A DNA stretch of 64,000 bases from contig DASXGW010000011.1 in assembly GCA_036488875.1 (NCBI GenBank), positions 1 through 64,000 on the forward strand. Direction: 5' to 3'. Origin of the DNA: Candidatus Baltobacteraceae bacterium. Lineage in GTDB: Bacteria; Vulcanimicrobiota; Vulcanimicrobiia; Vulcanimicrobiales; Vulcanimicrobiaceae. Made by a program: the position numbers and the translations under genes. The notes under the pieces were generated by a model that worked only from the letters and a program-made list of their open reading frames with translations, made no database searches and was not told where the DNA came from. This document shows, piece after piece, positions 7,853-53,489 of this stretch (positions are counted from its first letter, which is position 1; each line of letters begins with the position of its first letter).

Positions 7853-8289
7853 CAATCGCGTTATTTAACCTCTGCGAGAGCTCGCCTGCACGCCGTGTGA
7901 ACGAAGAAGTTTCGTCGGTCCTTCGTCAGAACGGCAGAACGCTAGAACGGAAGAGTTGTCGATGACGTCCGACTCTAGGTTGCAGTGAGAGTGATGGTTT
8001 GGAGCCTATCTCAGTGGCTGTTCCAGTCGACATCGTCAACGGGTGCAACTCTCTACTCCGGAAAGGCCTCATCTGAGATGTCGGCGTCTCCAGCCCGGCG
8101 CGCTACCCCGCCTGCGACGGCTCGTATTCCGACGCTGCGCGGCCGTCGACGGGATCCTGACCAAGCGCCGAGCCACCTAGCCCAATGGGGCGCCCTCATA
8201 ACTCCGTCATGACGCCGCCTCTCGCAGGGGGTATGCTTCTCTCATGGCCGGGCGCTTCGCCCCGGCAATGCCGACACGAGGAGCCAGAA
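7853..8289. other. Gene-poor interval with AGAACG triple repeat and a hairpin
   Basis: No convincing gene lies in this roughly 440-base gap; a 75-codon frame at 7985-8212 on the plus strand has low-complexity composition and no homology I recognise. Visible items are three AGAACGG/C units spaced exactly 8 bases apart at 7928-7950, and a hairpin at 8247-8266 (GCCGGGCG against CGCCCCGGC) directly before the GAGGAG ribosome binding site of the tautomerase. A possible promoter for the tautomerase is TATGCT at 8232-8237 with an ATGACG-like -35 at 8208-8213. Confidence 0.4.
7928..7950 (+). repeat. Triple direct repeat of AGAACGG/C, ending in motif copy 3
   Basis: AGAACGG at 7928, AGAACGC at 7936 and AGAACGG at 7944, each starting 8 bases after the last. 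The third unit is part of CTAGAACGG (7942-7950), the core shared with 3236, 6130 and 10485. Iterated half-sites upstream of a gene (paralog 2 starts at 7852 on the minus strand) suggest a cooperative regulator site. Confidence 0.4.
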
Positions 8290-8526
8290 ATGCCGTTGAT
8301 TCAGGTAAGCGTTATCAAGGGAGTTTTTTCGGCCGAGGAAAAGACGCAGATGATCTCGCGTCTGACGGACGCGATGGTATCGATCGAAGGGGAGAACATG
8401 CGTGGCGTCACGTGGGTGAAGATCGACGAAATCGAAAGCGGCGACTGGGGCATCGGCGGCCAGGCCCTGACGACCGAGGCCGTTAAGGCCCTCGCGGCCG
8501 GAAAGGCGCCCGCCGCAGCGGGATGA
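8290..8526 (+). CDS. 4-oxalocrotonate tautomerase family protein
   Basis: A 78-residue protein of 4-OT size. After removal of Met the N-terminus is Pro-1 (MPLIQVSVIKGVFSAEEK), the catalytic base of the tautomerase superfamily. The beta-alpha-beta pattern follows, with TWVKIDEIESGDWGIGG as the second strand and loop. The start at 8290 is fixed by the catalytic proline and by GAGGAG seven bases upstream; a longer frame from 8185 is not coding-like. The C-terminus (ALAAGKAPAAAG) is an Ala-rich tail. Its stop overlaps the next start (ATGA), so it is translationally coupled to the STAND regulator, which could mean the regulator responds to its product. That link is speculative. Confidence 0.85.
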   Translation: MPLIQVSVIKGVFSAEEKTQMISRLTDAMVSIEGENMRGVTWVKIDEIESGDWGIGGQALTTEAVKALAAGKAPAAAG

Positions 8527-10454
8527 TTGCGGGCGAGCGCGCTTCTGGGGATATCCCGTTTGTCGGGCGTGCCGATGAACTCGGTCAACTCGATCGTCTT
8601 ACGACGGGACCGGTACCATCGATTACGTTCGTCATCGGGATCGGCGGAATTGGCAAATCGCGCTTCCTCGATGCGTTTGCCTCCCGCCGCCGCGCCGCCG
8701 GCGGAACCGTGGTGCGGATCGATTGCCGCCTCGTAGAACCAACCGAAGACGGCTTTTACGAAGAACTACGCCGCACTATCGGGGGCGGTATCGCCACCTG
8801 CGAAGATGCGTCGCAGCGGCTGAGCGGTCTTGGAAACGTCGTGCTCGTGCTCGACGACATCGACGGCCTGCGGCTGCTCGACTCTTGGTTGCGACGCGCC
8901 TTCGTCCCGGCGTTGCCACCAAACGTGCATCTCGTCTTCAGCGGTCGGGATGCGCCTCTCTCCGCATGGCTGCGCATGACGTGGTATGGAGCGTTCCGTA
9001 CGCTCGATTTACCTCCGCTCGATGATGAGGAAGCCACCGCTCTGCTCGCAGCCGGCGGTATCGATCGAGAGCAAGCAACGCGCGTCAATCGATTTGCTCG
9101 CGGTCATCCGCTAGCGCTGACCCTCGCCGCGATAACGTTGCAAAGCGGCGTCGACCCCAGCCTAGAGGAACTCGCCTTCCATCGTATCTTGGACGAGCTA
9201 GCACGCCGGCATCTCGCCGAGATCGCCGACCCCGTTACTCGACGCGCGATCGAGGCAGCATCGCTCGTGCGAATGGTCAGCACGTCGCTTCTTGGAGCGA
9301 TGCTTCCAGACGTTGCGCCGAACGATGCTTTCGAAAGACTCCGCTCGCTTCCGATAACGCGCCTGACGCGCGACGGCCTAAAACTGCACGATTGCGTACG
9401 CGATGCGGTGGCTCGGGACTTACGCTCCTCCGACCCGCAACGACATCTCGGCTTGCGCCGAGCCTGCTGGGGCCGCTTGAGGCGCGAGCTGCGAAGCGCT
9501 CCCCCATCGGAGGTGTGGCGGTACACGGCCGACATGTTGTACCTTCTCGAGAATCCGGCGATTCGCGAAGCGTTCTTCCCGTCCGGCGCGCAACGTTACG
9601 CGATCGAAGTCGCTCGCCAATCCGATGAGAAAGCATTGGTTTCGATCGCACATCGTCATGACGGTACTCCTGGCGCAAGCTTGACCGCAACCTGGTTGAA
9701 GGAACGCCCGGGCGATTTTTCCGTCGCGCACGAGCCCAACGGCGACCCGGTCGGATACTACGTCATGTGCGAAGCATCGCAGCTCGAAAGTATGCCACGG
9801 CTTAACGACCCGGTGGTCGCACGTTGGTCGAATCACCTCGCGAAGAACCCCGTAGGGCCGGAGGAACGCGTCCTGTTTCTGCGCCGCTGGCTTTCGCGCG
9901 ATGAAGGGGAATCGCCATGTGCTATTCAGGCGGCGTGCTGGCTGGATATCAAACGGACCTACATGGCCTACCGCCCGCAACTTCGGCGCGTGTATCTGAC
10001 GCTCCGCGATATCGCGCCTTATGCTGCCGCGGCGGCTCAACTGGGCTTCGTAGTCGTAGACGAATGCGAGATCGCGTTAGGCGACGACCGCTATTTGACC
10101 GCGATGCTCGATTTCGGCCCGGACTCCGTCGACGGATGGTTTTCGAGGCTCGTTGCGGCGGAGCTGGGTATCGCATCGAGCCGGCTCCTAGACGTAGGGG
10201 CACGCGAGCTGGTGGTTGACACGCGGCGAGTTGCATTGTCACCTCGTGAGTTCGACACGCTTTATTATCTCGTGCAGCGCGAGGGCGAAGTCGCTCGGAG
10301 GGAGGAGATTATCTCCGAAGTTTGGGGCGATGCATCCGAGGTCGGGAGCAACGTGGTTGACGTCGTGATCCGAGGGCTTCGGAAGAAACTCTTAGACCGT
10401 TCCGAAGCTATCGAAACGGTCTCGGGCGTGGGCTACCGGCTGCGTGACGGCTAA
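8523..10454 (+). CDS. STAND NTPase with GNAT-like middle and C-terminal winged-helix DNA-binding domain
   Basis: A 643-residue regulator. Residues 11-350 form a STAND/AAA-type NTPase module with PFVGRADEL, Walker A GIGGIGKS (39-46) and Walker B VVLVLDDID (106-114). Residues about 390-540 look like a degenerate GNAT domain (FSVAHEPNGDPVGYYVM, then PQLRRVYLTLRD and AAAAAQLGFVVV). Residues about 550-643 are an OmpR/PhoB-type winged helix (LSPREFDTLYYLVQREGEVA, VDVVIRGLRKKL, ETVSGVGYRLRDG). In AfsR/SARP-type regulators the DNA-binding domain precedes the NTPase; here it is last. Probably a transcription factor switched by nucleotide state and perhaps by a ligand bound in the GNAT-like part. Coupled to the tautomerase. 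Confidence 0.8.
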   Translation: MIAGERASGDIPFVGRADELGQLDRLTTGPVPSITFVIGIGGIGKSRFLDAFASRRRAAGGTVVRIDCRLVEPTEDGFYEELRRTIGGGIATCEDASQRLSGLGNVVLVLDDIDGLRLLDSWLRRAFVPALPPNVHLVFSGRDAPLSAWLRMTWYGAFRTLDLPPLDDEEATALLAAGGIDREQATRVNRFARGHPLALTLAAITLQSGVDPSLEELAFHRILDELARRHLAEIADPVTRRAIEAASLVRMVSTSLLGAMLPDVAPNDAFERLRSLPITRLTRDGLKLHDCVRDAVARDLRSSDPQRHLGLRRACWGRLRRELRSAPPSEVWRYTADMLYLLENPAIREAFFPSGAQRYAIEVARQSDEKALVSIAHRHDGTPGASLTATWLKERPGDFSVAHEPNGDPVGYYVMCEASQLESMPRLNDPVVARWSNHLAKNPVGPEERVLFLRRWLSRDEGESPCAIQAACWLDIKRTYMAYRPQLRRVYLTLRDIAPYAAAAAQLGFVVVDECEIALGDDRYLTAMLDFGPDSVDGWFSRLVAAELGIASSRLLDVGARELVVDTRRVALSPREFDTLYYLVQREGEVARREEIISEVWGDASEVGSNVVDVVIRGLRKKLLDRSEAIETVSGVGYRLRDG

Positions 10455-10484
10455 TGGGCCACAGTAGTTAAGAGAAAGCCACGG

Positions 10485-10506
10485 CTAGAACGGCGTTGTC
10501 TCACGT
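10485..10506 (+). repeat. Intergenic motif copy 4 (CTAGAACGG core)
   Basis: CTAGAACGG followed by CGTTGTCTCACGT, in the convergent gap between the STAND regulator and the hypothetical membrane gene. It shares the core and the TTG...ACGT spacing of copies 1 and 2. Confidence 0.35.
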
Positions 10507-10513
10507 TTTGGGC

Positions 10514-10563
10514 TCATTTCACCCTAATTCCACCTAAAGGGCGTCATTTCACCGTAATTTCAT
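10514..10563 (+). repeat. Two direct repeats of TCATTTCACC(C/G)TAATT, 30 bases apart
   Basis: TCATTTCACCCTAATTCCAC at 10514-10533 and TCATTTCACCGTAATTTCAT at 10544-10563 match at 17 of 20 positions with a 30-base period, about three helical turns. The second copy overlaps the stop region of the minus-strand gene at 10560. Confidence 0.5.
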
Positions 10564-11258
10564 AGCGCGTATTCACCAGTGTAGGAGCTTGTACCGCCGC
10601 AACGGAGACCCGCGTGCGTCGCGTTTGCAGCGACTAGGTCCCGAACTTCGAATGCTCCGTCCGGCGTTCGTTTCGGCTTGTAGGCGCTAACGATTTCGTC
10701 GTCATATCGTTGATAGCAGTATGCGTACGTGATCCGCAGCGTGTCGTACCTTCCACGTTCGATGACGAACGGCTCGGCAAAGGAAAGCTGCTCGCCTTTC
10801 GGCAGCCTGAGCGTCCGGCGCGTTGAGCCAAGAGGTTCCCAAAGTGAGAAGCGGCTATAGAGGAGCTCTGGATCGCTGCCCCTCAGACTATGGCTCACAA
10901 TCGTGATCCCGTTGGCCGGACGGGTTTCTTGTGCTTCGCCGGTGCTGCCCTTATAGAGCACGCCGTGTGCGTTTACGAGTAGCGCGGCCATTGAGATGTC
11001 GTTCGATCCGGTATTGTTTAACGTAACGTTGATGGTGACGAGCTCTTTGCCGCCTTGCAGCGGCTCGTGCGCAACGCTCGCCGACGTCTGTAAACTCGGC
11101 AGCTCGCCGGCCGGCTTTATCCGTTCTTGGTACACGAAGACGTAAAACGCCCACGCCGCCGCAGTAACGAGGGCGACGATCTCCACCAAATGACGCCAGT
11201 GCTCGACGCGCGATGGCTTCGTATGTACGCGATACTCGGGTATCTCGGTCGGAAGCAT
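10560..11258 (-). CDS. Hypothetical single-pass membrane protein
   Basis: A 232-residue protein of unknown family. Residues 1-20 are polar and cytoplasmic, followed by one membrane helix (about 25-45, VEIVALVTAAAWAFYVFVY), then an extracytoplasmic beta-rich region. ELVTINVTLNNTGSNDISM and SFAEPFVIERGRYDTLRITY resemble immunoglobulin-like beta-sandwich strands with a conserved N-N-T-G turn, as in many accessory membrane proteins. Cysteines occur only near the end (YCYQRY, RCGG). There is no ribosome binding site match of note. It is convergent with the STAND regulator. Confidence 0.6.
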   Translation of the reverse strand: MLPTEIPEYRVHTKPSRVEHWRHLVEIVALVTAAAWAFYVFVYQERIKPAGELPSLQTSASVAHEPLQGGKELVTINVTLNNTGSNDISMAALLVNAHGVLYKGSTGEAQETRPANGITIVSHSLRGSDPELLYSRFSLWEPLGSTRRTLRLPKGEQLSFAEPFVIERGRYDTLRITYAYCYQRYDDEIVSAYKPKRTPDGAFEVRDLVAANATHAGLRCGGTSSYTGEYAL

Positions 11259-11318
11259 CTCGCAATACCTACGGCGAGAGGGAGCAAGTCACCCTCCCCC
11301 ACGAGCACTCCTAGCACG

Positions 11319-11350
11319 AAAAAGCCCGGTCGAAAAATCGCCGAGCTTTT
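11319..11350 (-). terminator. Intrinsic terminator after the GNAT genes
   Basis: GCCCGG (11324-11329) pairs with CCGAGC (11341-11346) with one mismatch, and the inner CGA/TCG extends the stem. Read on the minus strand it is followed by TTTTT (11323-11319). There is also a TTTT on the other side, so it may work both ways. It lies just after the stop of the 11356 gene. Confidence 0.7.
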
Positions 11351-11355
11351 CGGTC

Positions 11356-11937
11356 TTAGTCATCTACCTCGAAGCGCCTGATCGATGATTCTGGAGTCGG
11401 CGGTACTGGAACAGCGTATCTTCGGCGGCTTCCAACCGGTATCGGGAATATGCTTCGATCTGTGTCAGTCAGCCGAATGCCGCCGCACTTTTCTATCGCG
11501 GAGATGGACGCCACGTTGTCGTCGCGACACGTAACAATGGCTTCAGTAAGCCCCTTGCGGCCGAGAATCTTTAGCCCCTCTCGTAGCAGGAACGTCGCGA
11601 TGCCCCTGCCGCGATGTTGCGGATGAGTAGAGTAGCCGATGTTTCCGCCTAGTTGCTCGAGCCATTGGTTGAGTGGATGGCGTAATCCGAGATCGCCGAC
11701 GACCTCGCCGTCGAGAACGGCCCAATAATCGGCTTCCGGAACCCAGGGTATCCATTCATCCGGAATCTCTTCGCCTCGCGCTCTTCGGCGCAACGCAGCA
11801 ATCCATGCCGGCACGTCGCTATGAGCGAGCGCATGTCGCCCTGTCCACTCGTCCTCGCCGACTGCGAGAAACGCGTCCCGCATTCGCACGAAGGAATCCG
11901 CAAGTTCGAGACTCGGTTCGCGTAAAATCAGCGTCAT
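11356..11937 (-). CDS. GNAT N-acetyltransferase
   Basis: A 193-residue GNAT protein. The acetyl-CoA loop is HRGRGIATFLL (motif A, Q/R-x-x-G-x-G/A), preceded by the strand GGNIGYSTHPQ and followed by TEAIVTCRDDNVASISAIEKCGG, the usual motif B helix. The start at 11937 is set by the ATGA overlap with the stop of the upstream GNAT gene and by MTLILREPSLELAD, a normal GNAT beginning; a longer frame to 12156 is only an extension inside the neighbour. Closest in style to the RimJ/RimL and YdfB-like small-molecule acetyltransferases. Substrate unknown. Confidence 0.8.
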   Translation of the reverse strand: MTLILREPSLELADSFVRMRDAFLAVGEDEWTGRHALAHSDVPAWIAALRRRARGEEIPDEWIPWVPEADYWAVLDGEVVGDLGLRHPLNQWLEQLGGNIGYSTHPQHRGRGIATFLLREGLKILGRKGLTEAIVTCRDDNVASISAIEKCGGIRLTDTDRSIFPIPVGSRRRYAVPVPPTPESSIRRFEVDD

Positions 11938-12482
11938 GGCCGGATTCGCGCGTAAAGCGCCATGTCCATCAAGTTGCCGTCCTTGATGCAGGCGTTTCGC
12001 ATCAGGCCCTCTTTCTCGAACCCTGCCTTCTCCAAGACCCTGAACGACCCTGGATTCCAAAGGATGGGCGTGGCGAATACGCGCCGTAATCCGAGGTCCT
12101 CGAACGCGTACCGGCAGATTCGTTGAAGGGCGGCTGTGGCGATGCCGCGTCCCCAATAAGTCTCACCCAACCAGTAGCCCACTTCGGCAGAGCAGCGTTC
12201 GATGTCGGTTCCGGGCACGAGCCCGATTCCACCGATCGCTTCGCCGTTGACATCGATGATGAAGCTCGTGCGGCACTCCTGGTGTTGGACCATTCCGATC
12301 CAGGCGTAGGCGTCATCCACCGAATACGGGTGCGGCATGAGATCGCGCAGATTCATCCAGACGTCTCGGTTATTTGCGTGCTTAGCAAATGAGGGTGCGT
12401 CTGCCGCACGCGGTCCGCGCAGAACGACGGAACCACCACACTCCAGAGTCGTCTCCTTCAGGTTAGCCGCCAAGTCGGACAT
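11934..12482 (-). CDS. RimJ/RimL-like GNAT N-acetyltransferase
   Basis: A 182-residue protein with the typical start (VVLRGPRAADAPSFAKHANN), the paired aromatic region WMNLRDLMPHPYS, and motif A/B YWGRGIATAALQRICRYAF then LRRVFATPILWNPGSFRVLEKAGF. This pattern belongs to the RimJ/RimL group, which acetylates ribosomal protein N-termini or small amines. The ATG at 12482 is preferred over that at 12488: a perfect TATAAT lies exactly six bases before it, which would make the mRNA begin at the A of the start codon, while the TATAAT directly abuts the 12488 ATG. It is coupled by overlap to the next GNAT. Confidence 0.82.
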   Translation of the reverse strand: MSDLAANLKETTLECGGSVVLRGPRAADAPSFAKHANNRDVWMNLRDLMPHPYSVDDAYAWIGMVQHQECRTSFIIDVNGEAIGGIGLVPGTDIERCSAEVGYWLGETYWGRGIATAALQRICRYAFEDLGLRRVFATPILWNPGSFRVLEKAGFEKEGLMRNACIKDGNLMDMALYARIRP

Positions 12483-12488
12483 CGGCAT

Positions 12489-12494
12489 ATTATA
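12489..12494 (-). promoter_or_regulatory. -10 box (TATAAT) of a leaderless GNAT transcript
   Basis: A perfect TATAAT on the minus strand with six bases to the ATG at 12482. No -35 resembling TTGACA is at the expected distance. Spacing places transcription start at the start codon, the arrangement seen for leaderless genes in Deinococcus and Actinobacteria. Confidence 0.6.
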
Positions 12495-12526
12495 ACAGAT
12501 TCCATCGGTGGAGATGTGTGCTGGAC

Positions 12527-12970
12527 TCAGTGTCGTCTGCGGTACTCCATGAAGACCTTGAACTCGCTCTCGCTGGAAACAGCGAATCCGAGCCTCTCAT
12601 AGAGGTGCCTGGCTGGATTGATCTTGGCGGTACTTACCGTTAACGGCATGCGCTTAGCCCGTGCATCTTCTATCACTTGCCGAATCAGCGACGTTCCTAT
12701 ACCCCGCTTTTGGAACGCAGACAATAGATAAATGGAGTGCAGATGCAATGCCTCTTCCTCCTGGCGCACGCATATCCAACCTGCGTCTTGCCCGTCGACT
12801 ACAACGATACTCGTGTCGGACTCGTGGTAGTGACTCAGGAATCGGTCTTTCTCGAAGTCGTCCCCGCGCCATCCGAAGAGTTTCTCGATAATCCAGCGCT
12901 GGGTTTCGAAGTAAACCGATTCGACGAAGGGGCGGTCTGCAGATGAAGCAGATCGGAGCGTCAGTTTCAT
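12527..12970 (-). CDS. GNAT N-acetyltransferase
   Basis: A 147-residue minimal GNAT protein. It begins KLTLRSASSADRPFVESVYF, has the strand TSIVVVDGQDAGWICVRQE, LHLHSIYLLSAFQKRGIGTSLI (motif A, QKRGIG) and RHLYERLGFAVSSES (motif B). These residues make it an active acetyl-CoA-binding enzyme; the acceptor is unknown. Its own promoter box (TAGAAT) is six bases before the ATG. It is the third of three GNAT genes in a row, separated from the RimJ/L-like gene by 44 bases. Confidence 0.82.
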   Translation of the reverse strand: MKLTLRSASSADRPFVESVYFETQRWIIEKLFGWRGDDFEKDRFLSHYHESDTSIVVVDGQDAGWICVRQEEEALHLHSIYLLSAFQKRGIGTSLIRQVIEDARAKRMPLTVSTAKINPARHLYERLGFAVSSESEFKVFMEYRRRH

Positions 12971-30911: not shown

Positions 30912-31679
30912 ATGGCCGTGGCCTTTGCAATTGCCATCGCGATCCACGAAATCATCGCCGGATTGATTCCGCGCACGAACTCGCCGCCGGAGCGCGAGGT
31001 CGTCAGCCGCTTCGAAATCGTGCACATCACGGTGCGATCGATTCCGACGCCGACGCCGCCTCCGCCGCCGAAACCGCCGCGCGTCATTAGCCACGCGCGC
31101 ATTATCGCTCCAGTCGAACCGCGTATCGTTGCCCAAACGACGACCGGTGCTTCCGCACGCCGAGAAACGGTGCACCGCCAAGGCGCGGCCCGCCCGAAGC
31201 CGCCAAAGTTCTCCAACACCAAGCCCATCTGGGACATACCGGTCGGCGCGCAAGGCGCCGGCGCCGGTAAGGCCAGCGGTGCCGGAAGCGTTGGAAACGG
31301 GGGCAACGGTACGGGTGCCGGAAATGCCGGGAGCGGGAACGGCGCGGCGGCCGGAAACGAGCCGTGCGGCTACGTGGAGTTCGTGGATCCGCACGGAGCG
31401 AAGTTCGACCCCCAAACGCGCGGCTATTGGGTGGACGTGCAAATGTCCGTGCACTTCCCCGACGGGCACGTCGAGACGGTGCTGCTCGACTACCCCTGGT
31501 ACTACGAAAGCGCACCGCAGAACCCGTTCCAGAACCAAAGCGCGCCGATGCTCTTCCAGTGGCCTCCGGCCGACAAACGCGACGGCGAACCGCCGCTCGT
31601 GCAGTACGTCATGCAGCACAGCGCGCAGCCCGGAATTACGCTGCTCAAAGACTGCCCCCAACCGTCGTCGAACCCCTAA
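30912..31679 (+). CDS. TonB-like protein with Pro-rich linker
   Basis: A 255-residue protein with the TonB plan: one N-terminal membrane helix (about 3-22, VAFAIAIAIHEIIAGLIP, with the His found in TonB helices), a Pro-rich periplasmic spacer (IPTPTPPPPPKPPR), a Gly/Asn linker (about 115-153), and a C-terminal beta domain (GYVEFVDPHGAKFDPQTRGY, VDVQMSVHFPDGHVETVLLDYPWYY). The end is TonB-C-like in size and strand pattern, though without the classical motif. No start codon exists upstream in this frame within 60 bases, so 30912 is used. No ExbB, ExbD or TonB-dependent receptor is nearby. It ends three bases before the next gene. Confidence 0.55.
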   Translation: MAVAFAIAIAIHEIIAGLIPRTNSPPEREVVSRFEIVHITVRSIPTPTPPPPPKPPRVISHARIIAPVEPRIVAQTTTGASARRETVHRQGAARPKPPKFSNTKPIWDIPVGAQGAGAGKASGAGSVGNGGNGTGAGNAGSGNGAAAGNEPCGYVEFVDPHGAKFDPQTRGYWVDVQMSVHFPDGHVETVLLDYPWYYESAPQNPFQNQSAPMLFQWPPADKRDGEPPLVQYVMQHSAQPGITLLKDCPQPSSNP

Positions 31680-31682
31680 CGG

Positions 31683-34600
31683 GTGAGGCGCACGCTCGCT
31701 TCGGTCCCCGGCGCAGCATCATCGAGCCCGTTAGAACGCGCTCATTTGGTGCGGGCGTTCGCCGAGGTGCTCTCGACCGACGCTCCGGTCTCCGACTTAT
31801 GGGACCAGTGCTGCACGATTCTCGCCGAACTCGTCGACACCGAGTCGGTGTCGATCGTGACGCGCGAGTCCGGTGCGCAGGCGCCGCCGGGAGTGCTCGT
31901 CGTGCCGATTTGTTTCGGCAGAACGCTGCTCGGCGCGATCTGGTTAACGGGAGCAAAGTGCGGCGCCGAGCAGATGACGCTGCTGGAATCGTGTGCGCTT
32001 TATGCCGGATCGAGACTCTACCACGAGCGCACGACGGCGACGAGCGAGCGATTCGCGCAGCTTGCGTTTTCCGACGGCTTGACCGGGGTCGCCAATCGCC
32101 GGCGGTTCGATGAGGCGCTCGGATCGGAATGGTCGCGCGCGGCCCGCGATAGCGCGCCGCTCGCGCTGATCATGATGGATCTCGACTTCTTCAAGGGCTT
32201 CAACGATAACTACGGTCACCAGGCCGGCGATTTGTGCTTGCAGCGCGTCGCGCACGCGCTGCACGACTGTGTCGCGCGTCCCGCCGATCTCGTCGCGCGC
32301 TACGGCGGCGAAGAGTTCGTCGCATTGCTTCCGGGAACCGATCTGGCCGGCGCAACCCAAATCGCCGAACAGATGCGCGCGGCCGTCGAATCGCTGAGCA
32401 TCGTTCACGCCGGATCGTCGCTGCAGCACCTATCGATGAGCTTAGGTGTCGCATGCGACACGCCGGCCTCGGGGCAGGATGCCGGTTCGCTACTCAACGC
32501 TGCCGATGACGCACTGTACCGTGCGAAACTCGGCGGCCGCAATCGCGTCTACGCACGCGATTATCAAAGCGCCGCCGAGCCGGCGCGCCCGCGCCGCATC
32601 GCCGCGCTCAACAACTTGCCGCTGCAGCTCACGCGCACGATCGGTCGCAAGACCGAGATCGCTCAAGTCGCCGGCCTGCTCGGCAAACACCGCCTCGTCT
32701 CGATCGTGGGTACCGGCGGTACGGGCAAGACGCGCACGGTCATCGAGGTGGCTTCCGAGGGAACGAACCGTTTCGCCGACGGAGCGTGGTTCGTCGATCT
32801 TTCGCCCGTCACCGACCCATCGCTCATCGCGTCGCGCATCGCCGCCGCGTTCGCCGGCGAAGTTTCTCTCGATGAGAGCGCGACCGACGCGCTGGCCATC
32901 ATTCTCGAATCGAAAGACATGCTGCTGGTGCTCGATAACTGCGAGCACTTGATCGGCGACGTCGCCAATCTTTCGATCGCGCTGCTGCGCCATTGTCAGA
33001 AGCTGACGATTCTCGCGACCAGCCGCGAGCCGCTGGGAATCGCCGGCGAGGCCGTCTACCGCCTTCCGTTGCTCTCGATGCCGGCGGCGGGTACGGAAGT
33101 GACCGCGGCTGCGGCGATCGAGTACGACGCCGTCGCGCTGTTCACCGAACGCGCGATGGAAGTAAAGCGCGACTTCGTGCTCGACGACTCTAACGTTGCG
33201 CTCGTCGTCGAAGTTTGCCGTGCCGTCGACGGGATCGCGTTGGCCATCGAGTTGGCGGCCTCGCGCGTCGGGGTGATCGGGCTTGCCCAAGTCGCGCAGC
33301 GCCTGCGCGAGTTTCGTCTGCTGACCGGCGGCGACCGTACCGCCGTTCCGCGGCAGCGGACGATGCACGCCATGATCGGCTGGAGCTACGATCTGTTGAC
33401 GGAGGCCGAGCAAACGCTGTTGCGGCGCCTCGCCGTTTTCGCCGGCAGCTTCACCTTCGATGCCGTCACCGAGATCTGCTCGGGAACGCACGTGGAAGCC
33501 GAGGACGTCTTCGACCTGCTGACCGGTCTCATTCGCAAGTCGCTGTCAACCGGTGATCCCGATCACGACGATCGCTACCGCTTACTCGATTCGATTCACG
33601 CGTTTGCCAGCGAGAAATTGCACGAGGCGGGTGAGGTCGAGTGGCTCGAGCGTCGCCACGCGGACTACTACGAGGCAATGACGCGTCAGGCCGACGCGAT
33701 GTACCGGCGCACGCCTTCTCGCGAGTGGCTTGACGCGCTCGAGCCGGACGTCGACAACTTTCGCGTGGCTCTCGATTGGTCGCTCGATCGGCGCGGCGAC
33801 GTCGTCCTGGGCGCCGCCCTCGCGGCAGCCACGTCGAATTTCTTTAACGACTACATGCCCAGCGAAGCGACGCGCTGGATGGTGCGCGCACTCGAACTGC
33901 TGCCCAAAGGAAGGGCGCCTCGCGTCGAGGGCCGCTTGAATCTCTTGATGACGACTTCGGGTCGCGACCTTCCGGCCGCACGGATGCGCGCGGCGGGCGA
34001 GCGCGCCATCGAGATCTTCCGCGCGAATCTCGATCGTCAGCAGTTGGCCGAAGCGCTGCGCGGCACGGCGCAGATAATCGGGTGGTATTTCCGCGACGAT
34101 CGCGCGCTCGCCGACGAGCTGGCGTGCGAATCGATCGAGATCGCACGCGATTTGGGCGATCCGATCCAGCTCGCGTTGTCGCTGCGTACCCGCGGCTTGA
34201 CGATCGACATTTCGGACTTCCCGGCCAAGCGCGCCGTCCTGGAAGAGAGCCTTGCACTGATGCGCGCGCACGGCAACGACCGGCAGATCGCCAGCATGCT
34301 GACGTGGATCAGCGACCTCGAGTGTTCGGCCGGCGAAGATCGTCGCGCGCTCGAGTACGGGCGCGAGGCCGAAGCGTTCGCCAGGCGTTCCGGGTCGAAC
34401 GAGATCTATGCGACGGCAGTCGTCAACCTGGCCAACTACGCCTGCGCATTGAGCGAATGGGAGCTCGCGCGGCAAGCGATACGCGATGCGATCGCCGTGT
34501 CGCGCAAGACGCGTTTCCATCCGACTTTGACGTTCGCGCTTCAGGCCTACGCGTTCGTCGCAACGGAGTTCGGCGATCCGGAACGCGGCGCGATGCTGCT

Positions 34601-34787
34601 CGGCTTTTGCAACGGGCGCTTCGGCACGCTCCATCCCGGGCGCCAAGCCGATCAAAGTGAGGAAGTGCTGTACCGCCGGCTGCTCGCGACGCTAAACGAA
34701 GAGCTCGACGAAACCGCGCTGGCGCGGGCGACGGCCGCCGGCGCGACGATGAAAGAAGACGAAGCGATCGCTCTGACTTCAGCGTAG
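31683..34787 (+). CDS. GAF-GGDEF diguanylate cyclase fused to STAND NTPase and TPR-like repeats
   Basis: A 1034-residue signalling protein. Residues 20-115 are GAF-like. Residues 120-290 are a GGDEF domain: FSDGLTGVANRRRFDEAL, MMDLDFFKGFNDNYGHQAGD and active-site RYGGEEF (GGEEF at 208-212), with an RxxD inhibitory site (RPAD, 199-202). Residues 308-620 form a STAND NTPase of the NB-ARC type (LPLQLTRTIGRKTEI, Walker A GTGGTGKT 343-350, Walker B MLLVLDN 413-419). The rest is TPR-like helices. It should make cyclic di-GMP, perhaps gated by the NTPase. In known bacterial relatives this position holds an adenylate cyclase or DNA-binding domain. GTG start, poor Shine-Dalgarno. Confidence 0.88.
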   Translation: MRRTLASVPGAASSSPLERAHLVRAFAEVLSTDAPVSDLWDQCCTILAELVDTESVSIVTRESGAQAPPGVLVVPICFGRTLLGAIWLTGAKCGAEQMTLLESCALYAGSRLYHERTTATSERFAQLAFSDGLTGVANRRRFDEALGSEWSRAARDSAPLALIMMDLDFFKGFNDNYGHQAGDLCLQRVAHALHDCVARPADLVARYGGEEFVALLPGTDLAGATQIAEQMRAAVESLSIVHAGSSLQHLSMSLGVACDTPASGQDAGSLLNAADDALYRAKLGGRNRVYARDYQSAAEPARPRRIAALNNLPLQLTRTIGRKTEIAQVAGLLGKHRLVSIVGTGGTGKTRTVIEVASEGTNRFADGAWFVDLSPVTDPSLIASRIAAAFAGEVSLDESATDALAIILESKDMLLVLDNCEHLIGDVANLSIALLRHCQKLTILATSREPLGIAGEAVYRLPLLSMPAAGTEVTAAAAIEYDAVALFTERAMEVKRDFVLDDSNVALVVEVCRAVDGIALAIELAASRVGVIGLAQVAQRLREFRLLTGGDRTAVPRQRTMHAMIGWSYDLLTEAEQTLLRRLAVFAGSFTFDAVTEICSGTHVEAEDVFDLLTGLIRKSLSTGDPDHDDRYRLLDSIHAFASEKLHEAGEVEWLERRHADYYEAMTRQADAMYRRTPSREWLDALEPDVDNFRVALDWSLDRRGDVVLGAALAAATSNFFNDYMPSEATRWMVRALELLPKGRAPRVEGRLNLLMTTSGRDLPAARMRAAGERAIEIFRANLDRQQLAEALRGTAQIIGWYFRDDRALADELACESIEIARDLGDPIQLALSLRTRGLTIDISDFPAKRAVLEESLALMRAHGNDRQIASMLTWISDLECSAGEDRRALEYGREAEAFARRSGSNEIYATAVVNLANYACALSEWELARQAIRDAIAVSRKTRFHPTLTFALQAYAFVATEFGDPERGAMLLGFCNGRFGTLHPGRQADQSEEVLYRRLLATLNEELDETALARATAAGATMKEDEAIALTSA

Positions 34788-45028: not shown

Positions 45029-47035
45029 CTAACGAAGCAGCTCGATGCGGCCGGGATAGATCGGGCGATTGATAATCCGCTCCAACGTCTCGGCCGGGTG
45101 GCCGAGCGCGACTTTGGCAAACTCCGCGAAGCTCTCGCGCGTGGCTTCTCCCTCGGCGAATCGCTCGTTTTGCTCCATGTCGACGCGCCCGTCAACGGGC
45201 AGCAGCGCAACATATCGACCGTCGTCATCCTCACCGATTTCGGCCAATCCCGAGTCTTGGAAAATCCGAACCGCGGCGCCGATGGTCTTGTCGCGCACTT
45301 TATCGATATCCAGCGTAGCCGCGATATCGGCGTAGCTCAAACGAATCGCTCCGCGCGAGAGGCCCTTGAGGCCGCGATAGATCTCGCGCAGCTTCGGCAG
45401 CGACGGCGCGTCGAGGTCGATCAAGAACTCGTTGAGACGGCGATCGCCCTCGCCGTAGAGCAGATGTATCTCAGCGTACTCGCCGTCGCGCCCGGCACGT
45501 CCGGCCTGCTGGTTGAACTCGGCAAAGTCGAAGTTGAGATGAAACAGCACGACGTGGCGCACGTCCGGCAAATCGATGCCTTCACCGAAAGCCGACGTCG
45601 CAACGACCACGCGCAGCCCACCTTCGCGGAAAAAGCGCTCGACGTCGTGACGATCGGGCGTTGGCATCCCGCCGTGATAGAACATCACTTCGTCGCCGAT
45701 CTTCTTGCGCAGCGTTTCGGCGACGCTCTGCGCTTCAGACCGCGAGTTCGTATACACTATTCCCTTATCATCACGCGCGAAAAGGTCGACGAGGTAATCG
45801 GTCTTGTCCTTACGGCCGCGTGCGTCGACCACGTGCAGGTTTTCGCGCACGGTCGGATCGATGACCCACGCGGAAATCTCGAGGTCGTCGACGATCTTGC
45901 GAAACGGTTCGTCGTCGGCGGTAGCCGTCAACGCCAATACTTGCGGCCGCCCTAAGCTCGCGATCGTCGCGCGCAGCTGCGCGTAGGCCGGTCGATGACG
46001 CGATTCGAACAGGTGGTGCGCCTCGTCGACGACCACCAGACCCGGCGTGCTGCGCCCGGTAAACGCCTCGCGATGGAACTCGAGAAACTCCGGCGTGGCG
46101 AGTACGAGATCCCACGCGCCTTCACGCAACGCCTCGAAGAGCTCGTCCCGCTCGTCGTTACCGATCGATCCGTTGGCCTTATACACGCGTAAGCCGAGCG
46201 GATCGAGCTTTCGGATCAAGCCTTCGTACTGGTCGTTCGCCAGCGCGCGAAGGGGATAGATGACGAGCGTTTTCGCGCCCTCCGCCAGCGCGCGGCGTGC
46301 GGCGACGTATTGAAAGCAGAACGATTTTCCGCGACCGGTGCCAAGCACGGCCAGCGTATTCTTGCCGGCTTCGACGCGATCGAGCACGGCGCGCTGGGCG
46401 TCGTGCGGCCGCGCGTTGCCGATGAGCGCGGCAACGATGCGCTCCTCATCGCCCTGCAATCGCTCGCGCACCGGTGACGAACTGCGATCGCGTGCGGCGA
46501 TCGTCGCGCGCACGTCGCGCTCGACGTAGATGTTGACGCCGCGGTTTTTTTCGGCACCGCCCCCGGTGAGCGAAGCGATCCGCGCGCGATACGGTTCGCC
46601 GCCGTCGATGACCGGCGCGATGTGCTTGGCAATCGCGCGCTTGATGAAGCCGAGCTGAAGGTTGCCGTAAAAGACGGCAATGGCATTGGGATCGTGCGCG
46701 TTTTCCGGCTCGCGCCGCAGCTCCAGCTCGACGCCTTCGCGCAACCCTGCCAGCACGTCTTGCCGGCCCTCGAACGACACGCCCGCGATCTTGGTATGAA
46801 ACGCCGTCGCATCGCCGATGGTGGCGTACCGGTCGCGCAGATATTCGGAGCTCTTTGCAAACGCCCGATCTAAAAACTGCGCGAGCTCGCCGGTCTTTGC
46901 AGGCGCCGCTTCCCCCCGCAATGCAGCAAAGGCGGCCTCAAAAGCCGCCTCTGACGCAGTCGGTGGCGGAAGCTTAGTGCTTCTCTTCCTCTCCTGCGGC
47001 GCTTTCGCCGGGCTCTTGCGCGTGTTCGAACTCAT
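45029..47035 (-). CDS. HIRAN-domain RecQ-like DEAH helicase
   Basis: A 668-residue helicase. A HIRAN domain (about 80-172; FHTKIAGVSFEGRQDVL, ENAHDPNAIAVFYGNLQLGF) precedes the superfamily-2 motor: Walker A GTGRGKS (232-238), DEAH (337-340), TATADDEP, then SAFGEGIDLPDVRHVV and QQAGRAGRDGE. This resembles RecQ but lacks the RQC/HRDC order. HIRAN domains bind 3' ends of ssDNA, as in HLTF, so a role in fork or gap repair is likely. The start is uncertain: ATG 47035 overlaps the secF tail by 62 bases; a codon nearer 46974 is not available. Weakly conserved first 40 residues. Confidence 0.82.
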   Translation of the reverse strand: MSSNTRKSPAKAPQERKRSTKLPPPTASEAAFEAAFAALRGEAAPAKTGELAQFLDRAFAKSSEYLRDRYATIGDATAFHTKIAGVSFEGRQDVLAGLREGVELELRREPENAHDPNAIAVFYGNLQLGFIKRAIAKHIAPVIDGGEPYRARIASLTGGGAEKNRGVNIYVERDVRATIAARDRSSSPVRERLQGDEERIVAALIGNARPHDAQRAVLDRVEAGKNTLAVLGTGRGKSFCFQYVAARRALAEGAKTLVIYPLRALANDQYEGLIRKLDPLGLRVYKANGSIGNDERDELFEALREGAWDLVLATPEFLEFHREAFTGRSTPGLVVVDEAHHLFESRHRPAYAQLRATIASLGRPQVLALTATADDEPFRKIVDDLEISAWVIDPTVRENLHVVDARGRKDKTDYLVDLFARDDKGIVYTNSRSEAQSVAETLRKKIGDEVMFYHGGMPTPDRHDVERFFREGGLRVVVATSAFGEGIDLPDVRHVVLFHLNFDFAEFNQQAGRAGRDGEYAEIHLLYGEGDRRLNEFLIDLDAPSLPKLREIYRGLKGLSRGAIRLSYADIAATLDIDKVRDKTIGAAVRIFQDSGLAEIGEDDDGRYVALLPVDGRVDMEQNERFAEGEATRESFAEFAKVALGHPAETLERIINRPIYPGRIELLR

Positions 47036-48296
47036 CGAGGTTGAGCGATATCTCCTCGTGACCTTGTTCGAGTGCTTGGTCGTGCAGCCCCGCGTTCTGT
47101 GCGTCGAGCGGATCGATCTCCGATTCCGGTGCGTACGACTCTTCGACGGCGACCGCGCCCGGCGCGGCATCGTCGCGCTTGCGGCGATAACGCGACGGCG
47201 TCGGTGACGGCGTCGTGCGCGCGGCGGCCTTGGCCTTCTGCCGGCGCTCGCGGCGTGCCGCGACGATGTCCTCGCGCGCCATGCCGCCGCGGCTTTGCAG
47301 CGCCGAGGACTCCGCACGCGACCGCGACGTCGACGTGCGATCGGAGGTCAAGCCGGCGCGACGCTGTTTGACGGCGGCTTCCATTTGACGCTTGCGGAAC
47401 ACCAGCACCAGCGGGGCCGAAAAGAAGATTGAGTGGTAACCGCCCGAGCAGATGCCGACGAGCAGGGCGAACGCGAAGTTCTTCAGGCTCGCGCCGCCGA
47501 GCGCGAGCAGCGCGACCAGTGTGATGACGACGGTTGCCAGCGTATTGAACGAGCGCGTCATCGTCTGCTTGATCGACTCGTTGACGATCACGTCGTACGG
47601 CTGACCCGCCATCAGCTTGGTGTTTTCACGTATTCGGTCGAGAATGACGATCGTGTCCATGACCGAGTAGCCAATGACCGTCAGCACTGCCGCTAAGAAG
47701 GCGTCGTCGGCGCGCCGGTCGGCCAACGCGTAGATGCCGATCATCATCAAGGCGTCGCGCACCAGCGCGATGACCGTCACGAGACCGAAGATGTAGTTCC
47801 AGCCGAAGCGGAACGCGATGTAGATAAACTGGATACTGAGCGCGATGATCAGCGCCCAGAGCGCTTTGATCAGGTACTCGCGACCCAGCGACGGCCCGAC
47901 GGAGATGATCTGCGAAGCGGATCGGTCCACCGGTGCAACCGCGCCGAGCGCGTTCCAGAGCGGCGCCGAATCGTTGGCATACGCCGACTGCGTTTCAATG
48001 ATGAAGTGCTGGCCGTCGGTCTTTGCGGTCGTGACCGACTCGTCGGTGAGTCCGAGACCCGCCAGACCGGCCTTGATTTTGTCGGTCGTGGTCGGCTGCG
48101 TGAACGCCACGTCGATTTCGGTACCGCCGGTGAACGAGAGGCCCAGGCGTAGCATGTGCGACGGATTGAACCCCTGACCGCCTTGGAAGCCATGATAGAC
48201 CATGGCGCCGACGCCCAGCGCGATGATGAGGTACGAGATCGTCGAGACGGTCCGGTACCAGCCGACGATATTCCAATTGAGTTTGCGGAAGAACAT
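46974..48296 (-). CDS. secF: Protein translocase subunit SecF with long C-terminal tail
   Basis: A 440-residue SecF. The usual part ends near residue 300: FTGGTEIDVAF in the periplasmic domain, then DALMMIGIYALADRR, LTVIGYSVMDTIVILDRIRE and FAFALLVGICSGGYHSIFFS, the conserved helices that use the proton gradient to finish protein export. The last 140 residues (301-440) are a charged tail (QRRAGLTSDRTSTSRSR, RRERRQKAKAAARTTPS, then an acidic stretch ending AAGEEEKH). Such a tail is not part of typical SecF and may bind ribosomes or membranes. It starts three bases after secD. Confidence 0.94.
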   Translation of the reverse strand: MFFRKLNWNIVGWYRTVSTISYLIIALGVGAMVYHGFQGGQGFNPSHMLRLGLSFTGGTEIDVAFTQPTTTDKIKAGLAGLGLTDESVTTAKTDGQHFIIETQSAYANDSAPLWNALGAVAPVDRSASQIISVGPSLGREYLIKALWALIIALSIQFIYIAFRFGWNYIFGLVTVIALVRDALMMIGIYALADRRADDAFLAAVLTVIGYSVMDTIVILDRIRENTKLMAGQPYDVIVNESIKQTMTRSFNTLATVVITLVALLALGGASLKNFAFALLVGICSGGYHSIFFSAPLVLVFRKRQMEAAVKQRRAGLTSDRTSTSRSRAESSALQSRGGMAREDIVAARRERRQKAKAAARTTPSPTPSRYRRKRDDAAPGAVAVEESYAPESEIDPLDAQNAGLHDQALEQGHEEISLNLDEFEHAQEPGESAAGEEEKH

Positions 48297-50460: not shown

Positions 50461-52482
50461 CTACGCGGCGATGATCTCGCTCGGGTTCAACGTTAGCTCG
50501 CCTGGCAGCTCCCCGTACGAAAAGACGTCGACGCGTACGCCCGAGCGCATCAGGAAATCGGCGAGCAGTGGCCGCAACGCGGCCGTACACACGATCGACG
50601 CGCCGTCGCGCGAGCGCCCCGCGACGTAGCGGCCGATCTGCTCGCGCAGCGCCAGCGCCGTTGACGGCGACGCCGCGTCGGTTCCACCGCGGCTCCACGC
50701 CGAAACCAGCGTTCGTTCGAACTCGGGGTCGAAGATGGCCGGCTCCAGCGTTGCGACGGCGCGCCGTCGCAAGAGCTCGGGGATGACGACGCGGCGCGCG
50801 GCTTCCGCCAACTCGTTTGCGTCGCGCGATCCCGCTTCCAACATCGCTTCGAGGACGCGCACCGGATCGCGGGGCCACACCATTTCGCGCAGCAACAACG
50901 AAAACGCACGATGCACCGCCGCGAACGGCAGCGACTCCGTACCAATTTCTTTGATGACCGACGGAACGCTCGCGCGCAAATGCTCGAACAGCGTCTGCAA
51001 CTCTTGACGTCCGACCAGTTCGGCTGCGTGCGCGCGCGCGACTTCGGCCAAATGCGAACCGAGTACGGAGATCGGATCGAAAACCAGCGCGCCCGCCGCC
51101 GATGCGGCGTCGGCCCGTTCGACGGAAATCCACGCCGCCGGTAAGCCATAGACGGGCTCGGGCTCAACGCCCACGCCCAAGCGGCGCAACACCGCTTCTT
51201 CAGCCACGGCGAGCCGGCACTCCAGTCGAAGCGCGCCTTGAGCAACCAGCCGGTCGCGGACGCGAATGCCGTACGTCGCGGCTTCTCGTGCAAGGTCGTC
51301 GCGTAGCCGAACGCCGGGAAGAACGATGCCGATATCGGCCGCCAACGCTCGTCGCACCTCACCGATACGGTCGAGCAGCGCATCGGCGTGCGGCGGCACC
51401 AGCAGATGCGCGAGATCCGCGCCGACGTCGATGGATACCGCGTCGACGCCGACCAATCCGAGCGCAAGCTCCGGGCGCCGCATCGCTTGGCGGCGCGCAC
51501 GTTCGCGCGACGCAGCCGTTTCGTCGTCGCTGCGCGTGCGATGCCGCTGCGCAAGCCACGCGAGTACGAACGCCATTAGACCGAGCAGCGCAAAGAGCGG
51601 CCGCGGAAGCGCCGGAACAAAACTCAGTGCGAGCAGCAGCACCCCGACGCTGCGCAGCACGTCGGGGCGCGAGCACAACTGCGCGGCCAGATCCGATCCC
51701 AGCGCACCCTCGGACGCGACGCGCGTCACCATCATGCCCATTGCGGTGGAGATCAAGAACGCCGGCAAAGTCGTCACGAGCGCGTTGCCGATCGAGAGCA
51801 GGGCGAACCTGTTGAGCGCATCCACTGCAGTTAAACCATGATAGGCAATGCCCACGATGACGCCGCCCGCGAGATTGAGCGCGACGATGACCAACGCCGC
51901 GACGGCGTCGCCTTTGACGAACTTTCCGGCGCCGTCCATCGCACCGTAAAAGTCGGCCTCGCGCTGCACGGCCGCGCGCTTGCGGCGCGCCCCCGCGGCA
52001 TCGAGCACGCCGGCGTGAACGTCCGCATCGATGGCCATTTGCTTCCCCGGCATGGCATCGAGCGTGAAGCGCGCGGCGACTTCGGCGACGCGCTGCGAGC
52101 CACTGGCTATCACCACGAACTGGATCGTCACGAGAATCGCGAACACGATGATGCCCACGACGAGATTGCCGTTCACGACAAAGGCGCCGAACGCCGGAAC
52201 GATGGCGCCCACCGCGCCCGGCGTCGCTCCTTGCGTAAGAATCAATCGCGTCGCCGAGACGTCGAGGGACAATCGAAACAGCGTCGCGACGAGCAGAGCC
52301 GGCGCGAACGCACTGAACTCCAGCGGGTCCTCGACGGTGACCGAAAGCAGCAGGACGAGCGCGGATGCAAAGATGTTCACGCCCAGCAGCACGTCGAGCA
52401 GCCACGGCGGCAACGGCACGATCAAAATCCCGACGATCGCCAGAAGCACGCCTGCGAAGGCGTAGACCGGAAGCCGGGTCAC
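50461..52482 (-). CDS. flhA: Flagellar export protein FlhA
   Basis: A 673-residue FlhA: integral membrane part of the flagellar type III export gate. The N-terminal third has eight or so helices (VYAFAGVLLAIVGILIVPLP, LVATLFRLSLDVSATRLILT, VIASGSQRVAEVAARFTLDA, the FHIPEP region MPGKQMAIDADVHAG). The C-terminal cytosolic domain forms the nonameric ring. The start GTG at 52482 overlaps the flhB stop (GTGA), which fixes it. Operon order fliQ-fliR-flhB-flhA. Shorter than the roughly 690 of E. coli but complete. Confidence 0.95.
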   Translation of the reverse strand: MTRLPVYAFAGVLLAIVGILIVPLPPWLLDVLLGVNIFASALVLLLSVTVEDPLEFSAFAPALLVATLFRLSLDVSATRLILTQGATPGAVGAIVPAFGAFVVNGNLVVGIIVFAILVTIQFVVIASGSQRVAEVAARFTLDAMPGKQMAIDADVHAGVLDAAGARRKRAAVQREADFYGAMDGAGKFVKGDAVAALVIVALNLAGGVIVGIAYHGLTAVDALNRFALLSIGNALVTTLPAFLISTAMGMMVTRVASEGALGSDLAAQLCSRPDVLRSVGVLLLALSFVPALPRPLFALLGLMAFVLAWLAQRHRTRSDDETAASRERARRQAMRRPELALGLVGVDAVSIDVGADLAHLLVPPHADALLDRIGEVRRALAADIGIVLPGVRLRDDLAREAATYGIRVRDRLVAQGALRLECRLAVAEEAVLRRLGVGVEPEPVYGLPAAWISVERADAASAAGALVFDPISVLGSHLAEVARAHAAELVGRQELQTLFEHLRASVPSVIKEIGTESLPFAAVHRAFSLLLREMVWPRDPVRVLEAMLEAGSRDANELAEAARRVVIPELLRRRAVATLEPAIFDPEFERTLVSAWSRGGTDAASPSTALALREQIGRYVAGRSRDGASIVCTAALRPLLADFLMRSGVRVDVFSYGELPGELTLNPSEIIAA

Positions 52483-53489
52483 GTGCGCAGCAATCCGGCG
52501 CGGAACAGCGCCGCCACGACTTCGGCAACCGCGACGAAATGCGCGCGGTCGATCGGATCGCCGACGCGTCCGTCGCGATAGAGCGCTCGCGCCAACGGTA
52601 CGTTCTCGACGACCGGTATGCCCCTGGCCGCCGCTATGGCCCGCACGCGACCGGCGGCATCGCCGGCGGCGCGCACGAGAATGGTCGGCACCGCCACTAG
52701 CGGCGGTTCGTACTGCAACGCCACCGCCACGTGCGTGGGATTTGCAATCACGAACGACGCCTTTCCCACGTCGTCGACGCAACCGCGCAGCAGCGAACGA
52801 TGCAGCGCCCGGCGGCGTCCGCGCTCGAGCGGATCGCCTTCTTGTTCCTTGGCTTCGCGCTTGCGATCGTCGAAACTCATGCGCAGTTTCTGCAGCCACG
52901 TTCGGCGCGCCGCGCCATATTCGGCGACGGCAAATGCGGTTCCGACCGCAAACGCCGCGATCGCTACGCGTTGGGCCGCGTTCCAAACGCCGGCCGCAAC
53001 CCCGGCCACGGACCCCGCAGCGATTGCTTCGCGTGCGGCGGCTTGCAGCGCCGGAACCATCGCGCATCCTGCCAGTGCGAAGGCAGCTCCCGCGCGAAAT
53101 CCGTGACCGAGCGTCTCGCGCGAAAACATGCGCTTACATCCCTCTATTGGATTGAGCCGTTCCACCTTCGGAAGCGGAAAGATAAACAAGCCGCCCCCGT
53201 TCTGCGCGATCGCAACGACGCTGCCGGCGAGCGCCGCAGCGGCAATTGGCAGCAGCGCAACGCCGAGCACGGCCATCGAATCGACCTCTCCATTGCCGGC
53301 CGCAGCGCGCGCGATGGATCGGGAAGCCAGTGCTCCTAGCAGCGGCGCGCTCGCAACGAGCGTTAGACCGGCGGCGAGAAACGCCGCATTCGCGCCGAGC
53401 TCGGAACACCGCGCGACGTTGCCCTCGCGCCGCGCCTTTTCCAGACGCTGCGGCGTCGCGTCAAACGGCTTCTCCGATTCGTCGCTCAT
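52479..53489 (-). CDS. flhB: Flagellar export protein FlhB
   Basis: A 336-residue FlhB. It starts EKPFDATPQRLEKARREGNV, has four helices, and the autocleavage motif NPTH at residues 250-253 (VIANPTHVAVALQY), where the substrate-specificity switch from rod/hook to filament export is made. PVVENVPLARALYRD is conserved too. The start at 53489 overlaps the fliR stop (ATGA). The last residues overlap flhA. Confidence 0.95.
   Translation of the reverse strand: MSDESEKPFDATPQRLEKARREGNVARCSELGANAAFLAAGLTLVASAPLLGALASRSIARAAAGNGEVDSMAVLGVALLPIAAAALAGSVVAIAQNGGGLFIFPLPKVERLNPIEGCKRMFSRETLGHGFRAGAAFALAGCAMVPALQAAAREAIAAGSVAGVAAGVWNAAQRVAIAAFAVGTAFAVAEYGAARRTWLQKLRMSFDDRKREAKEQEGDPLERGRRRALHRSLLRGCVDDVGKASFVIANPTHVAVALQYEPPLVAVPTILVRAAGDAAGRVRAIAAARGIPVVENVPLARALYRDGRVGDPIDRAHFVAVAEVVAALFRAGLLRT

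Follow-up and report, generated by a model that had tools for sequence, protein, structure and literature searches.

AfsR, a transcription regulator of Streptomyces, joins an N-terminal DNA-binding/BTAD part to an NB-ARC-type STAND NTPase followed by TPRs, and Mclx-type proteins are built of a class III cyclase, an AAA/NB-ARC module, and a LuxR part in that order (PMC4452763). Here we describe P0001, an open reading frame (ORF) in a 64,000-nucleotide stretch of DNA (the window; contig DASXGW010000011.1, positions 1 to 64,000) from a Candidatus Baltobacteraceae bacterium. Its predicted product has the same kind of STAND module as AfsR, with TPRs behind, but the N-terminal position is occupied by a diguanylate cyclase (GGDEF) domain. 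With the Mclx-type proteins it shares the placement of a nucleotide cyclase ahead of a STAND-like NTPase, whereas those proteins have the class III fold, cyclic AMP chemistry, and LuxR; a Pfam scan of P0001 returned neither a class III cyclase match (PF00211) nor a C-terminal LuxR helix-turn-helix match.

Kinase-AAA_16-TPR-GAF-GGDEF proteins likewise carry GAF, GGDEF, a P-loop NTPase, and TPRs in one chain. However, they have a C-terminal GGDEF domain (the inverse order), an added N-terminal kinase, and a strong AAA_16 match, whereas P0001 has an AfsR-like NTPase, an N-terminal GGDEF domain, and no protein kinase match in the Pfam scan. An example is L089 from Marinobacterium stanieri (Gammaproteobacteria); of the GGDEF loci fetched, some 16 to 18 are close to the end of a frame of ~1700 codons, and among these the domain scan covered L089 alone. 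A 2005 study described a kinase-TPR-GGDEF protein in Clostridium thermocellum (PMC1262709). WspR and PleD resemble P0001 in having a GGDEF domain with GGEEF and RxxD motifs but are controlled by receiver domains, in place of which P0001 has a STAND ATPase. Rare GGDEF variants of NTP-dependent conflict systems, belonging to the VMAP and vWA-MoxR subsystems (PMC7159879), also have GGDEF in the place of a cyclic nucleoside monophosphate (cNMP) cyclase in NTP-dependent signaling; these are multigene systems with other core proteins, whereas P0001 stands alone. A literature search, which covered few subscription papers and is therefore weak evidence of novelty, found no description of an N-terminal GGDEF domain on a STAND protein. 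The pairing of GGDEF with STAND-like and TPR modules is already known, and this order and clade are apparently new. An initial annotation of the ORF, made from the sequence alone, had allowed that many examples of its architecture might already be described; none was found with an N-terminal GGDEF domain, although inverse-order relatives such as L089 and the C. thermocellum protein do exist.

We think it rather probable that P0001 is a STAND (NLR-like) signaling ATPase with a diguanylate cyclase output. Sequence comparison supports the domain order, the catalytic, inhibitory, and Walker motifs, the recurrence of the fusion, and, for closely related pairs among the other fusions, purifying selection; from these we infer catalysis, ligand binding by the TPRs, oligomerization, and the coupling between them. 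The features of the ORF are as follows.

31683..34787 (+): whole ORF P0001, 1034 amino acids; reduced GAF, GGDEF, STAND, TPR; open frame
31728..31994 (+): shortened GAF-like domain (residues ~16-104); aligns with Pfam-recognized GAF domains of paralogues minus their middle
31965..32063 (+): long helix leading into GGDEF (residues ~95-127); helix 95-130 in the model, and the GCN4-WspR match aligns from residue 96
32064..32546 (+): GGDEF diguanylate cyclase domain (residues 128-288); PF00990, E=6e-50
32172..32192 (+): MMDLDFF, strand with metal-binding Asp (residues 164-170); alignment A1
32277..32288 (+): RPAD, the putative RxxD product-inhibition site (residues 199-202); RxxD kept in 33 of 36 fusions
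32304..32318 (+): GGEEF active-site motif (residues 208-212); kept in 34 of 36 fusions
32547..32639 (+): GGDEF-STAND linker containing NNLP (residues 289-319); most fusions share an NLP-like motif, which also occurs in STAND proteins that lack GGDEF
32640..33617 (+): STAND NTPase (residues ~320-645); profile match to AfsR, Roq1, and Apaf-1
32709..32732 (+): Walker A, GTGGTGKT (343-350); GKTR in 16 of 16 aligned fusions
32922..32939 (+): Walker B, LLVLDN (414-419); Asp in 16 of 16 aligned fusions
33018..33029 (+): TSRE, sensor-1-like motif (446-449); intact in P0001
33618..34784 (+): TPR solenoid, presumed sensor (residues ~646-1034); helical hairpins in the model
34074..34247 (+): conserved TPR block IIGWYFR...LRTRGLTIDISDFPAKRAVLEE (798-855), candidate ligand or partner site; 60-70% identity in four other genomes

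P0001 is a genuine single frame rather than an assembly chimera. Its 1034 codons run without a stop from 31683 to 34787 on the forward strand, third-position GC is high along the entire frame, including the GGDEF-STAND junction, and codon-position composition is uniform. The segment from 32560 to 32660, where the initial annotation had advised confirming that the frame continues, is continuous in the sequence, and other fusions have a homologous linker there, usually with an NLP-like motif. The start codon is GTG and lies immediately after a gene that stops at 31679, three bases before, so translation of the two genes may be coupled. That preceding gene (30912-31679, +) encodes an N-terminal hydrophobic stretch and a proline-rich part and is TonB-like in look only; its product has no Pfam match.

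The GGDEF domain is apparently an intact diguanylate cyclase with an inhibitory site and is predicted to synthesize cyclic di-GMP (c-di-GMP). Motif counts were made on a set of 36 fusions, and 16 fusions were aligned for the Walker motifs. Asp166 and Asp168 are invariant across the 13 rows of alignment A1 (positions D47 and D49). In an AlphaFold2 model of residues 1-316, per-residue confidence (pLDDT) is mostly above 90 in the GGDEF domain, and the nearest solved structures are those of WspR, including a GCN4-WspR fusion as the top match, and of PleD. The WspR GGDEF domain, the nearest solved GGDEF relative, was crystallized behind a GCN4 zipper.

Ahead of this domain, the N terminus of P0001 is a reduced GAF-like domain and not a full GAF. 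No Pfam GAF model matches it, even at E<0.5, and it can be recognized as GAF-like because paralogues bear full GAF domains in the same place: Pfam recognizes GAF at the equivalent position in L032, L033, L146, and L156, and alignment with paralogues reveals that the middle of the domain is absent from P0001. The relatives L177, L178, and L184 are likewise short in this region. The model gives the GAF-like part as two helices, three strands, and a helix, with pLDDT values of about 60-73. The GAF domain of the initial annotation is thus weakened to a shortened, GAF-like one. The helix that follows (~95-127) may be signal-helix-like, as judged from the model.

The NTPase is best described as a STAND ATPase of the AfsR/Apaf-1 type (NB-ARC clade), which would be expected to undergo ATP-driven oligomerization. 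Single-sequence Pfam matches in this region are weak (AAA_22, AAA_16, and NB-ARC, all under curated cut-offs). A profile built from eight STAND regions (A2) has AfsR as its best match (2.7e-14, covering positions 3-336 of 340), with Roq1 and Apaf-1 next. At the helical GxP-type motif (G-hydrophobic-P-L-A), P0001 reads GIALAIELA, with Ala replacing Pro. The same Ala is present in P0004 (a second STAND-TPR protein of the window) and L147 and in both proteins of locus L149, and Pro is present in most other fusions, indicating that this Pro is not invariant within the clade as aligned. P0001 was modeled as two pieces, residues 1-316 and 307-1034, and in the second the nucleotide-binding domain has pLDDT values mostly of 70-90. 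The best Foldseek match of this piece is a STAND protein with TPRs, 6mfv, at low TM scores (0.33/0.37).

Pfam TPR matches in P0001 are weak; the model, however, shows a regular helical-hairpin solenoid, with pLDDT values mostly of 75-94 from about residue 770, which structurally resembles the TPR proteins LGN, Rap, and NprR (Z ~20-22); the alignment rows behind these matches span mainly the TPR part and are uninformative on the NTPase. The initial annotation had joined an active-looking diguanylate cyclase with GGEEF and RxxD motifs to an NB-ARC-type STAND NTPase and TPRs in one frame, and both elements of that assignment are borne out by the intact motifs, the PF00990 score, the profile match, and the modeled solenoid. 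L177, L178, and L184 are full-length relatives of P0001, and the first two, from two other genomes, are ~50% identical to it throughout. The block at residues 798-855 is far more conserved than the remaining TPR region: a 122-residue query around it found matches of 62-67% identity in four other genomes from two other genera, and by their coordinates all four sit in frames that also bear a GGDEF-STAND match. Such conservation is most naturally read as pointing to a common ligand or partner. In another genome (G017), L149 encodes tandem GGDEF-STAND fusions (6172-9408 and 9513-12740) that are 82-83% identical in GAF, GGDEF, and STAND and 58% identical in TPR, which suggests that in this pair the presumed sensor end evolves faster.

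The fusion recurs. The same genome has three further GGDEF-STAND fusions with the same domain order (C1:333295, C4:249696, and C1:423227), and when 149 genomes of the phylum were scanned with alignment A1, at least 34 gave a match that extends across GGDEF and STAND within a single frame. These genomes represent 17 genera, with 33 belonging to the same family and one to another family of the class. Among close pairs of other fusions, the ratio of nonsynonymous to synonymous substitution rates (dN/dS) ranges over 0.03-0.26 in GAF, GGDEF, and STAND (six pairs) and over 0.09-0.20 in the TPR region (usable comparisons), with GGDEF generally ranking with the most constrained regions. Every domain of these pairs is under purifying selection, apart from one spoiled TPR value. 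That value (0.36), from L146 (5424-8534) and L220 (5054-8317), was discarded: the proteins differ over ~160 TPR residues while the DNA is 82-84% identical, as results from a frame change. Both assemblies are metagenome-derived, and the frame change in one of the two may be real or a sequencing error.

The fusion is likely absent from the acidobacterial, proteobacterial, and planctomycetal samples. No match spanning GGDEF and STAND was found at E<=1e-100 in 297, 398, and 246 genomes of these three phyla, respectively, with scoring limited to the 3-6 best candidates of each genome (and, for the planctomycetal sample, without a positive control). A few matches in these samples begin at the STAND part. 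Whole-genome sampling covered these three phyla and the phylum of P0001. A search of genome contigs with P0001, using patterns largely within GGDEF, returned only ordinary or inverse-order GGDEF proteins. Among plasmids and phages, no place covers 80% of P0001, and each match listed involves just one of the two domains, GGDEF or STAND. One contig catalogued as viral (IMGVR_UViG_3300047160_030248, 26.9 kb; L236-L238) carries several cyclase-like STAND/AAA genes in a row and is more likely bacterial than viral.

The GGDEF module has likely been fused, lost, or exchanged more than once, because fusions placed on the STAND tree need eight state changes, at least three of them forced by well-supported branches, and a single clade of fused STAND domains was rejected (approximately unbiased test, p=0.0005; log-likelihood 114 lower), with long branches calling for care in reading these values. 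Resolution of the GGDEF tree is insufficient to tell fusion, loss, and exchange apart or to fix the number of events. In that tree, fused GGDEF domains stand mostly apart from the GGDEF-EAL proteins of the P0001 genome, and one unfused GGDEF protein of this genome, L014, falls among them.

In paralogues, the same STAND-TPR core is preceded by other N-terminal modules, namely a class III cyclase (PF00211 in L012 and L041), a helix-turn-helix, a GAF domain, or none. Because these modules are swapped before the same core, the N-terminal module reads as output. These relatives, found both in the same genome and beyond it, also provide context for the view of the initial annotation that the usual form of this plan has an adenylate cyclase or DNA-binding domain in front. 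GGDEF catalysis requires two domains to meet, and STAND proteins oligomerize upon activation. In the mechanism we propose, the C-terminal TPR solenoid would sense a ligand or protein partner, whereupon the STAND module would exchange ADP for ATP and oligomerize. The GGDEF domains, joined to it via the reduced GAF-like domain and the long helix, would then form productive dimers and convert GTP to c-di-GMP, with product inhibition exerted through the RxxD site. With 11 PilZ and 12 EAL matches, the genome is equipped for c-di-GMP signaling; the PilZ proteins could read the c-di-GMP and the EAL proteins could remove it.

Several observations weigh against this proposal. The dN/dS pairs are other fusions, and P0001 is without a relative close enough for the measurement. 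The winged-helix part of the STAND model is of low confidence, and GGDEF and STAND are in separate models and hence have no predicted interface. Among 32 fusion loci, nothing beyond the fusion itself is common to more than three, so gene neighborhoods give no pointer to input or output. In addition, the active-site motif is degenerate in 2 of 36 fusions, reading GEEEF in one fusion of the same genome and GEDQF in a fusion of another genome, so that not all members retain cyclase activity. These two variants would be expected if the domain were kept for binding, as in the alternative that GGDEF serves as input, wherein GTP or c-di-GMP at the active or RxxD site would set the state of the STAND module and the latter would act on a partner through the TPRs. 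In the P0001 group, such a partner could bind at the conserved TPR block. We nevertheless regard an input role as doubtful, because GGEEF is kept in the other 34 fusions, few parts of the fusions are as a rule more constrained than GGDEF, and the N-terminal module of related STAND proteins is a cyclase or DNA-binding domain that reads as output.

A constitutive or GAF-regulated GGDEF cyclase that the STAND-TPR part only localizes, scaffolds, or stabilizes is an unlikely reading. Most members do have a GAF-like domain ahead of GGDEF, and L014, the nearest unfused GGDEF protein of the genome, shares 50% identity, so that the cyclase could function alone; but the Walker A and B residues are retained throughout the 16 aligned fusions and STAND is under purifying selection, both of which fit an active switch better than a passive scaffold. 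Defense receptors exist among bacterial STAND proteins, and in predicted NTP-dependent conflict systems a cNMP cyclase is on occasion replaced by GGDEF (PMC7159879); both would accord with P0001 being an NLR-like anti-phage receptor that uses c-di-GMP as an alarm signal. That role appears very improbable, however, given that no PADLOC model matches most of P0001 (the match obtained is weak and fragmentary: mad8, 54 residues, E=8e-4), that the 32 loci have no recurring defense neighbors, and that different genera share a conserved candidate sensor block in place of a diversified one. The chance that a sequencing or assembly error joined two genes, as the initial annotation had cautioned, or that the fusion is decaying, is negligible. 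The same order is found in three paralogues and at least 33 other genomes, the linker is conserved, and codon-position composition is uniform; an assembly or annotation chimera is ruled out by the recurrence in paralogues and relatives.

Related and neighboring genes have features of their own. P0004 (35673-37802, -) lacks an N-terminal output domain, faces P0001, and is 34% identical to its STAND-TPR part. L033 (5776-9975; C1:421775-425974), the largest fusion of the genome, comprises PDZ, a hydrophobic N-terminal part, GAF, GGDEF, STAND, and TPR, and its GGDEF domain is degenerate, with GEEEF and HxxD. Within the window, 8523-10454 (+) encodes a further STAND-like regulator, with its output at the opposite end: an AAA_16-like NTPase whose C terminus is a winged-helix DNA-binding domain (Trans_reg_C). 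One ORF at 45029-47317 (-) places a HIRAN domain before a DEAD/Helicase_C helicase, and 50461-53067 (-) encodes an FlhA-family (FHIPEP) export protein whose longest frame begins ~210 residues ahead of the Pfam match, so its start may be overcalled.

More broadly, though we offer this tentatively, it is possible that the phylum has family-specific NLR-like receptors whose direct enzymatic response to STAND oligomerization is c-di-GMP synthesis, that GGDEF modules were joined, lost, or exchanged between STAND-TPR sensors several times, and that the P0001 group senses a conserved ligand via its nearly invariant TPR block. If the coupling is true, an NLR-type oligomerization switch would drive the GGDEF-by-proximity principle, and two of the best-studied designs, bacterial second-messenger signaling and NLR-like receptors, would be united in one chain. 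The enzymatic output of STAND proteins would then be freely exchangeable among class III cyclase, GGDEF, and DNA-binding modules, and c-di-GMP would provide a simple readout of STAND activation, opening ligand screens for orphan bacterial STAND-TPR receptors.

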